Of a stretch of DNA of 59,271 nucleotides, positions 13,981-47,664 are shown piece by piece (position 1 is the first letter of the stretch; every line of letters starts with the position of its first letter). Where the stretch lies: the NCBI GenBank assembly GCA_947471365.1, contig CANIWQ010000005.1, positions 1 to 59,271 of the forward strand, in the 5' to 3' direction. Under the pieces are notes generated by a model. That model was given only the letters and a program-made list of their open reading frames with translations. It ran no database searches and had not been told where the DNA came from. This DNA is from Gemmatimonadota bacterium (GTDB lineage Bacteria > Gemmatimonadota > Gemmatimonadetes > Gemmatimonadales > Gemmatimonadaceae). The translations under genes and the position numbers were made by a program.

Positions 13981-14954
13981 CAGACCGGCAACCCGGCCGA
14001 TTCCTCAAAGCCTAGCATCAGATTCGCATTCTGTACCGCCTGCCCCGCGGCACCTTTCATCAAGTTGTCGATCGCCGACAGCACGAGCATCGTCGGCGTG
14101 CGAACGTTCTGCAGCATCGTCGCATGAATCCGCACCACGTTGCGGTGATTCACGTGTCGCAGCTCAGGCGGCGCATCCGACAGTTCAATGAAACGCTCCC
14201 CAGCGTAGCGTGCGCGAAACGGCGCCATCGCATCGGCCACGTCGACGGTGAGCGGAATCGTGATTGACGACAAAATCCCGCGCGCAATCGGCAAGAGATG
14301 TGGCGTGAAAATCAAATCCGCATCCGCGTGCCATTCGCCCATCATCGCGCGCATCTCGTTCAGATGACGGTGCGTGTTGCCAATACCATACGCACGATAG
14401 TTCTCGGTGATTTCACCAAACAGGAGATCCGTGCGCGCCGAAAACCCAGCACCGGTCACGCCGCTCGCCGAGTTGGCGATCACCTGCGCCCCCGGCGCGA
14501 TCAGCCCCTGCTCCACGAGTGGCAACAGCGCCAAGAGGATCGACGTCGGATAGCACCCAGGGTTCGCCACCACGTCGGCACCGCGAACTTGCTCGCGCCG
14601 CAGTTCGGTCAGTCCGTACGGAACGCCCGATGTGTCATTCCCAATGCGAAGATCGTGCGACAGATCCACAACCTTGGCGCCGGCACCCCGCGCCCGCTCA
14701 ACCCAGAGCTTCGACGCGCCATGCGGCAACGAACTGAACACCAGCGCTGCCTCAGCAAGCGGGGCGTCGTCGGTCGCCACAAAGGTCACCGCCCCCCCAC
14801 CTGGGAGTTCGGCGGACTTCCCGCGCTGCTCATTCGCCGTCGCAAAGGCCAGCGACATCCGAGGATGGCGCTGCACCAACGCACACAGCTCTCGGCCCGC
14901 ATACCCGCTGGCGCCGAGCACTCCGACTGGCATTCTATGCATTGATGAATGCAT
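13980..14954 (-). CDS. argC: N-acetyl-gamma-glutamyl-phosphate reductase
   Basis: NADPH-dependent reductase of 324 residues, third step of arginine synthesis. VGVLGASGYAGRELCALV is the Rossmann nucleotide-binding segment, VVANPGCYPTSILLAL holds the catalytic Cys, and ENYRAYGIGNTHRHLNEM the conserved His region. The start is unsure: ATG at 14954 follows GAGAG at a normal distance, but a consensus TATAAT lies only 8 bases before it, so ATG at 14942 or 14933 is possible. The last gives MPVGVLGASGYAG, the usual family start. An ArgR-box-like sequence overlaps this region. It is first of the argCBD transcription unit and divergent from argR. Confidence 0.93.
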   Translation of the reverse strand: MHSSMHRMPVGVLGASGYAGRELCALVQRHPRMSLAFATANEQRGKSAELPGGGAVTFVATDDAPLAEAALVFSSLPHGASKLWVERARGAGAKVVDLSHDLRIGNDTSGVPYGLTELRREQVRGADVVANPGCYPTSILLALLPLVEQGLIAPGAQVIANSASGVTGAGFSARTDLLFGEITENYRAYGIGNTHRHLNEMRAMMGEWHADADLIFTPHLLPIARGILSSITIPLTVDVADAMAPFRARYAGERFIELSDAPPELRHVNHRNVVRIHATMLQNVRTPTMLVLSAIDNLMKGAAGQAVQNANLMLGFEESAGLPV

Positions 14955-15648: not shown

Positions 15649-17043
15649 GTGAGCGGCGGCGAAGACGCCAAGACGCACAAGCTGTGGGGAGGCCGTTTTT
15701 CCGAAGGCCCCCACCCCGCGCTTGATGCCGTCAATCGCTCCATCGGCGTGGATTTTCGCCTGTGGCCCCACGACATCCGACTCTCCAAGGCGTGGGCCCT
15801 CGCCCTCGGTGAGGCCGGCGTCCTGTCCGCGGATGATGTGTCGCGCGTGCGAAGTGGCCTCGACCGTGTCGCCGCGCGTTTCGCTGCCGGCGCACCACCG
15901 AGCGCCACCGACGAAGACATTCACACGATGATCGATCGCCTCCTCCATGAGGAGGCCGGCGAACCTGCGTCGCGCCTGCACACCGGCCGGAGCAGGAATG
16001 ATCAAGTCGCCACCGCCACCCGTCTTTGGACGATCGATGCGATCGGGCGCATCGAAGCGCTGCTCCGCGATCTCCAGCGCGCGATGGTAACGCAGGCGGA
16101 ACTGCTTGAACATGATCTGGTTCCCGCCTACACCCATCTCCAGCGCGCGCAGCCCGTGAGTGCTGCGCATTGGATGCTCGCGCACTTCTGGCCACTCGAG
16201 CGCGACCTCGTGCGTCTCGCCAATGCGCGCCGCAGTGCCGCCGTCATGCCACTCGGCTCCGGTGCCATCGCGGGCTCGGCATTCCCGGTACCGCGCGCAC
16301 TCCTGCAGCGCGAACTCGGCTTTGACTCCGTCTCACCGAACTCCATTGACGCGGTCGGCGATCGCGATTTTATCGCAGAACTGCTCTTTGCGTTGGCGCT
16401 CACTGGCACGCACCTCTCGCGCCTCGCCGAAGACCTTATTCTGTTTGGGTCCAGCGAGTTCGGGTTTGTGCGCTATGGCGATGGTTTCAGCACGGGCTCC
16501 TCAATGATGCCCCAGAAACGCAATCCCGATGCGCTGGAGCTCGCGCGCGGTTCGGGGTCGCGCGTGCTGGGCGACCTGGTCGCGTTGCTCTCGACCATCA
16601 AAGGACTCCCGAGCGGCTATAACAAAGACCTCCAAGAGGACAAACGGACCCTGTTTGACGCGATCGATTCCCTGGAACTCCTGCTCCCAGCGGTCGCGGG
16701 CTCCGTGGCAACGCTCACATTCAATCGCACGAGAATGCGCGCCGCAGTCTCCAGCACGATGATGGCGACCGATTTGGCCGATTACCTAGTTCGGAAACGG
16801 GCCACATTCCGCGATGCCCACGGTGCGGTTGGTCGGTTGGTGAGAGAAGCTGAGGAGAAGGGGCTGGAGCTCACGGAGCTTCCGTGGGGCTCATTTGCCG
16901 CCGCACACCCCCTCTTTGAGCAGGACGTGTTGAAGGAACTCGACCCAGCGCACACTGTTTCGCACCGTGAAATCGAGGGGGGCACAGGCCCGTCCGCGGT
17001 AAAGGCGCAGCTCACGAGAGCCCGTGGAATCTTGGGTGGTTGA
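15649..17043 (+). CDS. argH: Argininosuccinate lyase
   Basis: Enzyme of 464 residues that splits argininosuccinate to arginine and fumarate, the last arginine step. It is a homotetramer of the fumarase/aspartase superfamily. LWGGRFSEGP starts the protein, HTGRSRNDQVATATRLW is the conserved C1 region with catalytic contacts, THLQRAQPVS the second, and GSSMMPQKRNPD (283-294) the superfamily signature loop with the catalytic Ser. The start is GTG at 15649; a nearby ATG at 15623 is out of frame and ends at once. No clear ribosome binding site is present. argG and argF are not in the window. ArgR control is likely from the operator-like region upstream. Confidence 0.95.
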   Translation: MSGGEDAKTHKLWGGRFSEGPHPALDAVNRSIGVDFRLWPHDIRLSKAWALALGEAGVLSADDVSRVRSGLDRVAARFAAGAPPSATDEDIHTMIDRLLHEEAGEPASRLHTGRSRNDQVATATRLWTIDAIGRIEALLRDLQRAMVTQAELLEHDLVPAYTHLQRAQPVSAAHWMLAHFWPLERDLVRLANARRSAAVMPLGSGAIAGSAFPVPRALLQRELGFDSVSPNSIDAVGDRDFIAELLFALALTGTHLSRLAEDLILFGSSEFGFVRYGDGFSTGSSMMPQKRNPDALELARGSGSRVLGDLVALLSTIKGLPSGYNKDLQEDKRTLFDAIDSLELLLPAVAGSVATLTFNRTRMRAAVSSTMMATDLADYLVRKRATFRDAHGAVGRLVREAEEKGLELTELPWGSFAAAHPLFEQDVLKELDPAHTVSHREIEGGTGPSAVKAQLTRARGILGG

Positions 17044-17100: not shown

Positions 17101-17142
17101 AACAAACGACAGTCATACAACATGTTATGACTGTCGTTTGTT
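17101..17142. terminator. 17-bp perfect inverted repeat after argH
   Basis: Left arm AACAAACGACAGTCATA (17101-17117), 8-base spacer, right arm TATGACTGTCGTTTGTT (17126-17142), followed by TTGTTAC. It starts 57 bp after the argH stop. The stem plus T-rich tail could end argH transcription. It also lies about 60 bp before the AT-hook gene and could be that gene's operator. The sequence alone does not separate the two roles. Confidence 0.6.
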
Positions 17143-17204
17143 TTGTTACTTTCATCCTTAGCACTGACTATTTATTTTCCTTATTTTTGAGTATATTTTT
17201 GGCC

Positions 17205-17603
17205 ATGCGACTCACCACCGCCATGGCATCGACCGCACTCGGCATTCCAAAAAAATTCCTTGATAATATCCTGACGCGGGAAGCCTCCTCACTCCTCCCG
17301 CTCGGTAGGCAGGGAAAGAGCCGGCAGATCCCCGTTGCCGCTGTCGAGCAGATCTGCGTTGCCCTCCTGCTTCAACGGGAACTCGGCACCCCCATCGCCA
17401 AATCCCTCCAAATAGCTCAGCAACTCCTCGAGGGCGCGGGGCAGGCTGCTATCGGAAAGCTGGGCGCCATCACCTTCGACCTGCCGCGCATTCGTCGGTC
17501 GCTCCACCAAGCCATCGCCCAAACGCTCGAGGAAGGCTCCAATCCGACCCGGGGACGCCCCCCTCGCCAACACCAGAAAACCAAACGGGGCGCCTCCTTT
17601 TAG
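17205..17603 (+). CDS. Small AT-hook DNA-binding protein, unnamed family (copy 1)
   Basis: I do not recognise a named family. The protein has 132 residues: an N-terminal helix-turn-helix-like region (STALGIPKKFLDNILTRE, about 9-26), a helical segment AVEQICVALLLQRELGTPIA (46-65), a helix beginning FDLPRIRRSLHQAIAQ (91-106), and a basic tail with the AT-hook core TRGRPPR (115-121). The gene at 47038-47664 has the same order, with matching ELG, FDL-x-R and RGRP elements, so the two are probably paralogs. The ATG at 17205 is preferred; a longer frame overlaps argH and codes for a hydrophobic stretch across the inverted repeat. The upstream 160 bp is strongly AT-rich and carries AGTATATTT just before the start. 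The likely role is DNA binding, possibly self-regulation. Confidence 0.65.
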   Translation: MRLTTAMASTALGIPKKFLDNILTREASSLLPLGRQGKSRQIPVAAVEQICVALLLQRELGTPIAKSLQIAQQLLEGAGQAAIGKLGAITFDLPRIRRSLHQAIAQTLEEGSNPTRGRPPRQHQKTKRGASF

Positions 17604-17613
17604 GAGGCGCCCC
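17587..17613. terminator. Strong bidirectional terminator hairpin spanning a stop codon
   Basis: 12-bp perfect stem GGGGCGCCTCCT / AGGAGGCGCCCC with a 3-base TTT loop. The TAG stop of the AT-hook gene (17601-17603) lies at the loop and first stem bases. It lies 26 bp before the end of the convergent cold-shock gene, so it can serve both genes. No T-run follows on the plus strand. Confidence 0.75.
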
Positions 17614-17639
17614 GCCAAGAGGAAGCGACGTGCGAAGCG

Positions 17640-17849
17640 CTACGCAGGCTTCGTTACGTTCTCTGCCGCCGGACCCTTCTGGCCCTGTACGATGTCGAAC
17701 TCCACCGCATCGCCCTCGGCCAACGACTTGAAGCCGTTGCCCTGGATCGCGCTGTAGTGGACGAAGCAATCCTTCGAGCCGTTGTCGGGCGTGATGAACC
17801 CAAAGCCCTTCGCATCATTGAACCACTTCACCTTGCCAGTCGTACGCAT
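17640..17849 (-). CDS. Cold-shock domain protein
   Basis: Single-domain OB-fold nucleic-acid chaperone of 69 residues in the CspA family, which binds single-stranded RNA and DNA and melts structure in m[21 protein letters not shown] contains RNP1 (KGFGFI) and DCFVHYSAI is RNP2; the C-terminus [19 protein letters not shown] is typical. The ATG at 17849 has AGGAG six bases upstream and is preferred to the in-frame TTG two codons earlier. The gene has an untranslated leader of probably about 70 bases if the promoter proposed at 17927-17956 is real, in line with the long structured leaders of csp genes. Confidence 0.95.
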
Positions 17850-45688: not shown

Positions 45689-45834
45689 GGAAATTGGCGT
45701 CCCGTAGACGGTGCAATGAAGCCCTGCGGCAACTCCGCTACTATTATATCCCGTCGACAGCTCCGCCGATGCCTGCGAACTACCGACCGTGGGGCTCGAC
45801 GGCTCTTCCCGTCCTTATTCTTGTGCGGTTACAG

Positions 45835-46812
45835 ATGCCTGAACTGGAATCCAGATACCGCCCAGCGTGGTGGCTCCCAGGTCCTCACCTCCCGACCATC
45901 TGGGGGAAGCTCGGCCGGCGGCGACCGACGGTGCATGACCGGGTTGAACGCCTGGCCACCCCCGATGGCGATCACATCACTTTGGTGCGAATGGGGCACG
46001 CACGACCCGGCATTCCCCACCTCCTTGCCCTGCACGGACTCGAGGGGAAGGTCAACGCAAAGTACGCGCACGGCCTGTTAGACGAGGCGCGAACGTTGGG
46101 ATGGAGCGGGGACCTCATGATGTTCCGCTCGTGTGACGGCGAGATTAATACGGCACGACGGTTTTATCACTCCGGCGAAACCACCGATATTGATTTCGTC
46201 GTTCGCACTCTGATCGCTCAAGAGCCGGCGCTCCATCTCGTGCTCTGCGGTGTTTCGCTCGGCGGTAACGTCACGCTCAAGTGGCTCGGTGAGCAGGGCT
46301 CGAACCTCCCGCCGCAGGTGAAACGAGCCGCGGCCGTCAGCGTACCGTATGACCTTGAGGCCGGCGCCGTCTTTATGGAAAAGGGGTTTGCCCGTCGGTA
46401 CGTCCAACACTTCCTCGATACGCTCACGGAAAAAGCGCTCAAGAAGCTTGCGCATCACCCAGGGCTATTTGACCGCGAAAAACTGCTGGCGGCGCGTACC
46501 TTTCGGGACTTTGATGACCTTATCACCGGTCCTCTGCACGGGTTTCTCGATGCACACGACTACTACACGAAGTCCAGCTCCATTGGTTTTCTTGACGGAA
46601 TAGCCGTGAACACCCTGCTGCTTAGCTCGCAGGATGACCCTTTCCTTCCCCCTGTTGTCTTGGACAAAGTAAAGAAAATTGGTGCCTTGAACCCAAGCCT
46701 TCACCTCGAGTTTTCTCAACGAGGGGGTCACGTTGGCTGGGTGGAAGGACAACCCTGGAACCAGCGTTTTTACATGGAAAGACGAGTGGTCGAGTGGCTA
46801 TCTGGGGAATAG
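45835..46812 (+). CDS. YheT-family alpha/beta hydrolase
   Basis: Alpha/beta hydrolase of 325 residues of the YheT/ABHD1-3 group. YRPAWWLPGPHLPTIWGKL is the family start. LLALHGLEGKVNAKYAHGLL is the oxyanion region, MFRSCDGEIN the conserved R-x-C segment, CGVSLGGNVTLKW the nucleophile elbow (GxSxG), SSQDDPFLP the Asp and SQRGGHVGWVEG the His. Members act as esterases or acyltransferases on lipid substrates. The ATG at 45835 fits the conserved start; upstream in-frame sequence is not family-like and overlaps the antisense ArsC-like start. No signal peptide. The 225 bp downstream are AT-rich and carry the dyads listed at 46840 and 46972. Confidence 0.9.
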   Translation: MPELESRYRPAWWLPGPHLPTIWGKLGRRRPTVHDRVERLATPDGDHITLVRMGHARPGIPHLLALHGLEGKVNAKYAHGLLDEARTLGWSGDLMMFRSCDGEINTARRFYHSGETTDIDFVVRTLIAQEPALHLVLCGVSLGGNVTLKWLGEQGSNLPPQVKRAAAVSVPYDLEAGAVFMEKGFARRYVQHFLDTLTEKALKKLAHHPGLFDREKLLAARTFRDFDDLITGPLHGFLDAHDYYTKSSSIGFLDGIAVNTLLLSSQDDPFLPPVVLDKVKKIGALNPSLHLEFSQRGGHVGWVEGQPWNQRFYMERRVVEWLSGE

Positions 46813-46982: not shown

Positions 46983-47037
46983 TACGGTGGTGTGTGAGGG
47001 GTACAGAAGTAAATAAATGTACTTAGTATATTTATTT

Positions 47038-47664
47038 ATGACGCTCGATCAATTCGCGATCGCCTCACGCTCCTCCGTCACCTGGCTGAACAACGCGCGA
47101 CGACTCACCGGTCGACGAATCCACCGCACACCGAACGGGGCTCGGTGGTGGGGGATGATCCGGACACTCAACACTGAGCTGGGGATATCACTCGGCTCTG
47201 CGGTGTTGCTGGCCGACACGATCTTGGGGGCGCCCCACACCACGCACCGAGTGCGGATTGCAGCGAGTGCCGACCTCGCCATCGCGCTCCATTTTGATCT
47301 TGAGCGGTTCCATTCCACTGCAAACGCCGCCCTCGCCGCCGCCCTCGCCTTCTCGCAACCGAAATCTCGGGGACGCCCCAAAAAGGCGAGCTCCGAGCGT
47401 CCCCGCCCGCGCACAGAGCCGATTTCAGACGTGTGGGTAATCCGTGTGGACGATTCGCCGTCAGCGTTAGAGCGGCTGGCTCACCACCTAAGAGAGTGGG
47501 GGGCCTACCCTCGCGGCATTGAACGCGGACTCCCTTTCATCATGGATGCCGCCACACTCAAGGCCGTGCCAAGGCTCGCACTCACGACAACCGAGAAAGG
47601 GCCCATCGACGTACTGGTGGCGGGGCCTCTTTCTCTTGAAGACCCCGCGCCCAAAAATCGATAG
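47038..47664 (+). CDS. AT-hook DNA-binding protein, unnamed family (copy 2), with extra C-terminal domain
   Basis: No named family recognised. The protein has 208 residues. Residues 1-120 follow the same order as the product of 17205-17603: an N-terminal helix-turn-helix-like part (DQFAIASRSSVTWLNNARRL), a helix ending in LNTELGISLGSAVLLADTIL (44-63), a helix beginning FDLERFHSTANAALAAALAF (86-105), then the AT-hook SRGRPKK (110-116). Residues about 128-205 add a compact alpha/beta region (WVIRVDDSPSALERLAHHL ... GPIDVLVAGPLSL) missing in copy 1. The ATG at 47038 is preceded by AGTATATTT, the same 9-mer found before copy 1. No ribosome binding site is seen, so a leaderless mRNA is likely. Probably a DNA-binding regulator; target unknown. 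Confidence 0.65.
   Translation: MTLDQFAIASRSSVTWLNNARRLTGRRIHRTPNGARWWGMIRTLNTELGISLGSAVLLADTILGAPHTTHRVRIAASADLAIALHFDLERFHSTANAALAAALAFSQPKSRGRPKKASSERPRPRTEPISDVWVIRVDDSPSALERLAHHLREWGAYPRGIERGLPFIMDAATLKAVPRLALTTTEKGPIDVLVAGPLSLEDPAPKNR

Follow-up and report, generated by a model that had tools for sequence, protein, structure and literature searches.

A lineage-specific family of MerR-like, AT-hook-bearing proteins in Gemmatimonadota, kin to NTase-paired regulators

The window, the whole 59,271-nucleotide stretch of Gemmatimonadaceae DNA analysed here, contains two intact open reading frames for small AT-hook proteins, both on the plus strand. The first (17205..17603) encodes a product of 132 aa, P0001, and the second (47038..47664) a product of 208 aa, P0002. 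P0001 starts with a MerR-like winged helix-turn-helix (HTH) that spans about residues 1-76; residues 80-111 form two strands and one helix, and the AT-hook TRGRPPR follows at 115-121. P0002 has a MerR-like HTH with a shortened wing, assigned by homology, the AT-hook SRGRPKK (110-116) and a remnant of a nucleotidyltransferase (NTase; about 131-195). Upstream of P0001 lies argH (15649..17043, plus strand), which encodes argininosuccinate lyase and carries the signature GSSMMPQKRNP; its convergent neighbour is csp, a cold-shock domain gene (17643..17849, minus strand). P0002 has as its conserved upstream neighbour an ORF (45694..46812, plus strand) with a presumptive hydrolase-like product; the genus has tblastn matches to it, with 56-89% identity, at 11 loci of the P0002 and fused types.

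The initial annotation described the two products as sharing one order of features. A direct comparison is suggestive at most (BLASTP, 30% over 81 aa, E 0.063). The profiles built from the two ortholog groups, in turn, align over 111 columns with a probability of 97.5% and an E-value of 8.4e-12, which places the proteins in the same family and not in unrelated ones, and the order HTH-like start, [ED]LG helix, FD[LIV] helix and RGRP recurs in both groups, as had been claimed. This profile-profile match, together with the conserved order of features, indicates that the relation is real and that, by sequence comparison, P0001 and P0002 are homologous across about 110 residues. An AT-hook, that is, a (P)RGRP core with basic flanks, is present, and R116-G117-R118-P119 is invariant in the alignment of the P0001 group; the Pfam AT_hook model reaches E 0.13 at best on P0002, under the family cut-off. 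No regulator family was assigned to either protein in Pfam, NCBIfam, PADLOC or PHROGs, and sequence profiles gave no credible match to PDB chains. Weak one-off matches to 4HBT_3C, PipB2 and HigA fell under their cut-offs and were discarded. The proposal of an unnamed, lineage-specific family of AT-hook-bearing DNA-binding proteins with two members here, probably regulators, is supported: the family is a genuine one, MerR-like and kin to NTase-paired regulators.

Structure prediction, one of the checks suggested with the initial annotation, gives P0001 a MerR-type winged helix. The AlphaFold2 model, made from P0001 and eight relatives (nine sequences), is of moderate quality (pLDDT 74, pTM 0.62), and it is in this predicted model that the N-terminal winged HTH has the MerR topology; residues 80-111 of the model may constitute a dimerisation part. 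Its best Foldseek matches are mostly of the MerR type, with CvkR at E 0.008 and none below 1e-3. CvkR (7xn2) also tops the VIA list with Z 9.2 and an rmsd of 2.8 over 107 of 132 residues, the next entry having Z 7.1; VIA Z-scores under 8 can reflect a common arrangement only, and CvkR stands above that value. Other MerR-type proteins align to the model with Z of about 5 to 7, mostly through the winged helix alone. VIA rows for NaK channels were ignored on account of their rmsd of 6-7. A single-sequence model of P0002 has a pLDDT of 40 and was set aside, so that the assignment of fold applies to P0001. Because no curated MerR family in Pfam or NCBIfam matches P0001 or P0002, we call the proteins MerR-like and do not file them as members of that family.

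Counting copies in relatives, namely 148 genomes from its GTDB family, showed that P0001 is normally single-copy, with matches at E<1e-4 in 77 of them. In a phylum-wide sample, strong matches of the P0001 type were limited to Gemmatimonadaceae, and the P0002-type profile extended to other families of Gemmatimonadales. A profile search of genome contigs with a narrower alignment matched eight Gemmatimonadota loci, and the named relatives were all Gemmatimonadota; no match to P0001 was found in plasmids, nor to P0002 in phages. Among 30 ortholog loci, argH with its GSSMMPQKRNP signature lies upstream of the P0001-type gene in 27 and a convergent csp downstream in 28, and at least some of the exceptions may reflect a contig end or the 1.5-kb flank. 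P0001 is thus a single-copy Gemmatimonadaceae gene with a fixed place, flanked by argH and a convergent csp. Because P0001- and P0002-type genes occur together on one contig, in the same orientation and 9-47 kb apart, in eight genomes of the genus, the 30-kb spacing in the window represents an old shared neighbourhood and not a recent duplication. The term paralog, by which the two had been linked, is accordingly apt in the sense of homology but not in that of a recent duplicate pair, since they belong to two old clades.

It would be tempting to read this arrangement, which several genera share and which is kept at about 28 of 30 loci, as a sign that P0001 controls argH or csp in addition to itself. 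However, argH precedes P0001 on the same strand and is separated from it by a terminator-like hairpin, and csp is convergent, so that its promoter is on the far side; we therefore regard control of the neighbours as unlikely. The hairpin in question is a 17-bp perfect inverted repeat with a T-rich tail (17101..17142, plus strand; dG -25.8 kcal/mol, z -6.1), and to judge from these features it is most likely the terminator of argH and not an operator. A second hairpin (17584..17616; dG -30 to -33 kcal/mol) lies between P0001 and csp, is likely a terminator as well, and encodes the last residues of P0001 (RGASF) and its stop. In several congeners the protein ends in KRGAxL or a similar sequence, which suggests that the C-terminus is set by the terminator.

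The initial annotation had further placed both genes in AT-rich islands with inverted repeats and with a common sequence just before the start. Each of these observations stands, in part with another meaning. The islands are indeed AT-rich, with 41% and 43.5% GC compared with about 61%, but they are ordinary promoters, and other intergenic gaps in the window reach 44-45% GC. Dyads do lie upstream of both genes, but the strong one near P0001 scores as the intrinsic terminator of argH; at P0002 an imperfect dyad, TAAATAAATGTACT-T-AGTATATTTATTTA (47010..47038), abuts the start codon and overlaps a TATATT -10-like box. The common sequence, AGTATATTT, occurs twice in the window, where 0.05 copies are expected, and both copies lie just before the starts of P0001 and P0002, as claimed, but it is better understood as a -10-like element. 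Genome-wide there are four copies in 3.3 Mb, an unremarkable count next to two for the reversed control pattern, and all four fall within about 15 nt upstream of a start codon. With a TATAAT that stands 8 nt before the ATG of a minus-strand ORF of 324 aa at 14954, the simplest reading is that AGTATATTT represents a leaderless -10 box. Its use as a shared operator was considered and demoted, since its remaining two copies in the genome stand before unrelated genes, one like holA and one like a gene for a UvrD-type helicase (L117, L118); these copies hint at a class of leaderless promoters. In P0001 the promoter/operator region (17172..17204, plus strand) has a TATATT -10-like box 7 nt before the ATG.

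Palindromes at the start sites are more informative. We scanned the 50 nt before and the 6 nt after each start at a threshold of at least 9 of 10 paired bases, which was reached by 15 of 30 P0001-type genes and by 7 of 24 genes of the P0002, operon and fused types. Among control starts, taken from long ORFs of the same loci and the window, 6 of 156 did so; these controls are less AT-rich on the whole, and one of the nine with at least 60% AT reaches 9. A strong palindrome thus abuts the start codon in half of the P0001-type genes, and many orthologs are without one (e.g., L012, L013, L015, L017, L021). The palindrome of P0001 itself is strongly degenerate, no better than shuffles, which weakens the operator reading for this copy, and it is perfect in several congeners. 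In six congeners, TAATATCCTC-N6-GAGGATATTA, allowing up to three mismatches, occurs once per genome and the control pattern not at all; the match lies at the coordinates of the ortholog in five of them and just before the ortholog ORF in the sixth, G311. The shorter form TATCCTC-N(4-8)-GAGGATA is likewise found once, just before the P0001 ortholog, in five congeners, and G311 carries a single exact copy at another place, while the longer form matches there once, with three mismatches, just before the P0001 ortholog. In the genome of the window, the core of the P0002 palindrome is unique. A near-unique palindrome at the gene itself argues for an autoregulator with a single site, and we take the family to be most likely autoregulating.

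These counts bear directly on the idea, also put forward initially, that the family silences AT-rich DNA. A global silencer or nucleoid-associated protein would bind such DNA broadly through its AT-hook in this GC-rich genome, like Lsr2 or H-NS, and the invariance of RGRP in the P0001 group would fit such a role, as would a P0001 gene that is single-copy, syntenic and under purifying selection. The operator-like palindrome, however, marks about one site per congener genome and that of P0002 is unique, although binding driven by the AT-hook could do without a palindrome. Binding by a lone AT-hook is normally weak, which also counts against a silencer, as do a predicted fold of the sequence-reading MerR type and the operonic association of the related genes with an NTase. 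We consider silencing improbable, and the claim is not upheld.

The NTase association comes from the wider family. Members of the P0002 clade, which is spread through Gemmatimonadales, typically precede an NTase gene, and an NTase ORF with the motif GG...GS..T.D(L/V/I)D lies directly 3' of the operon-type genes, with the exception of L051, at a contig end. A representative operon-type NTase matches Pfam DUF2204 above the cut-off, and AbiEii and DUF6036 below theirs. The operon-type regulators carry a C-terminal tail with the consensus YGvDlslLrxxLrrtPaeRLrrLdanaxF, which also appears, at E 4.5e-8 among 5061 ORFs, in an XRE protein encoded beside an NTase in the genome of the window; two further ORFs near NTase ORFs match it weakly. 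A tail common to different DNA-binding domains with the same kind of enzyme as partner is what one would expect of the toxin-binding module of an antitoxin. The XRE-type HTH protein followed by its NTase (L003, 622-1508) resembles an intact NTase toxin-antitoxin pair. At L052, the stretch 315-1272 upstream of the operon-type pair holds a further NTase, different from that of the pair, and an ORF close to it that matches the tail weakly.

In P0002, the C-terminal third matches the NTase profile (8e-17) and is without GG and the DxD segment, so that the protein is a putative regulator fused to an NTase remnant. In longer fused relatives the NTase is complete but degenerate, with GG changed to GD, for example. 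Fusion of regulator and NTase is seen at two separate places in the tree (L045/L053/L057 and L040/L042/L043/L049/L054), and the NTase motif is degenerate at each. P0001, which has csp as its neighbour, carries no tail and no NTase. An adjacent NTase with an intact motif is found with the operon-type homologs, whereas neither P0001 nor P0002 has an active NTase partner.

In a tree of 64 sequences, the 30 P0001-type proteins form one side of a branch with support 100/100, and the operon, fused and P0002 types form the other, where P0002, like the fused forms from the genus, nests among operon types. The tree is unrooted, with midpoint placement only, and does not fix the direction of descent of P0001; that the operon type is spread more widely and that a long branch leads to the P0001 type favour the latter as the derived one. 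On our reading P0001 and P0002 are related to NTase antitoxins and probably derived from them. It might be argued that they are decaying toxin-antitoxin remnants without present function, as the truncated NTase of P0002, lacking DxD, and the absence of the tail in P0001 could suggest. However, dN/dS from NG86 counts against the nearest congener comes to 0.15 for P0001, 0.10 for P0002 as a whole and 0.15 for the C-terminal part of P0002, which is thus constrained too; it ranges from 0.05 to 0.17 in P0001-type pairs and from 0.06 to 0.10 overall in P0002-type pairs. These low values indicate that both are working genes and that the NTase remnant is still constrained. The gene positions are conserved as well, and decay, already disfavoured, is very improbable.

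We suggest that P0001 and P0002 are local autoregulating MerR-like repressors, kin to NTase antitoxins, which is the best overall explanation and in our judgement a rather likely one. Both would be dimeric winged-helix regulators of the MerR type with a C-terminal AT-hook. The winged helix would read the palindrome overlapping the core promoter and start codon of its own gene, the AT-hook would clamp the minor groove of the A/T tract beside it, and the bound regulator would block RNA polymerase, so that the gene represses itself. In the operon types across Gemmatimonadales, in which a tailed regulator precedes an NTase, the two would most simply form a toxin-antitoxin-like pair, with the regulator serving as both antitoxin and autorepressor; P0001 would then be a stand-alone member without tail or toxin, and P0002 a regulator fused to a decayed NTase. 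The proposal builds on observed homology, gene neighbourhoods, purifying selection, palindromes and their uniqueness, and on the predicted fold; dimerisation, DNA binding, autorepression, antitoxin function and the direction of descent are what we infer. We further speculate, with confidence a little short of even, that an undescribed toxin-antitoxin-like family of Gemmatimonadales, made up of MerR-type AT-hook antitoxins and their NTases, was domesticated twice, as a stand-alone gene for a single-site regulator between argH and csp throughout Gemmatimonadaceae and as a fusion to a catalytically dead NTase, with selection continuing after loss of the toxin activity. The series from two-gene module through fused to stand-alone regulator makes antitoxin domestication directly testable, and it gives two hypothetical proteins conserved among Gemmatimonadaceae a specific, testable role.

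Our literature searches did not find a MerR-type HTH combined with both a bacterial AT-hook and an NTase partner, and searches for an AT-hook in NTase antitoxins found none. The parts of this combination have counterparts. Truncated MerR proteins have been described as predicted antitoxins of PIN toxins, likewise with a MerR-like HTH, and they differ in their PIN partner and in being without wing 2 and the dimerisation helix; an AT-hook is not mentioned in the available part of that source (Makarova 2009, PMC2701414). The operon types resemble NTase systems of the AbiE/MenAT type in pairing a DNA-binding protein with an NTase in a two-gene operon, and their NTase, a putative toxin, shares the GG/GS...DxD motif (PMC11375011). 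In contrast, the operon-type regulator is not AbiEi-like by Pfam, being MerR-like with an AT-hook, and P0001 and P0002 are set apart from those systems by having no active NTase partner. CvkR (Alr3614; PDB 7xn2) is, according to the available part of its description, a MerR-type repressor of type V-K CRISPR-associated transposons that is expressed from a leaderless mRNA, binds a promoter palindrome, dimerises via beta strands and represses cas12k and tnsB (PMC9938897). P0001 shares 14% identity with CvkR and no sequence-level match, comes from another lineage and neighbourhood, and has an AT-hook, which that part of the CvkR source does not mention (PMC9938897). Like CvkR, however, it is small, with a predicted winged HTH followed by strands and no evident ligand domain, and has a palindrome at its promoter and probably a leaderless start.
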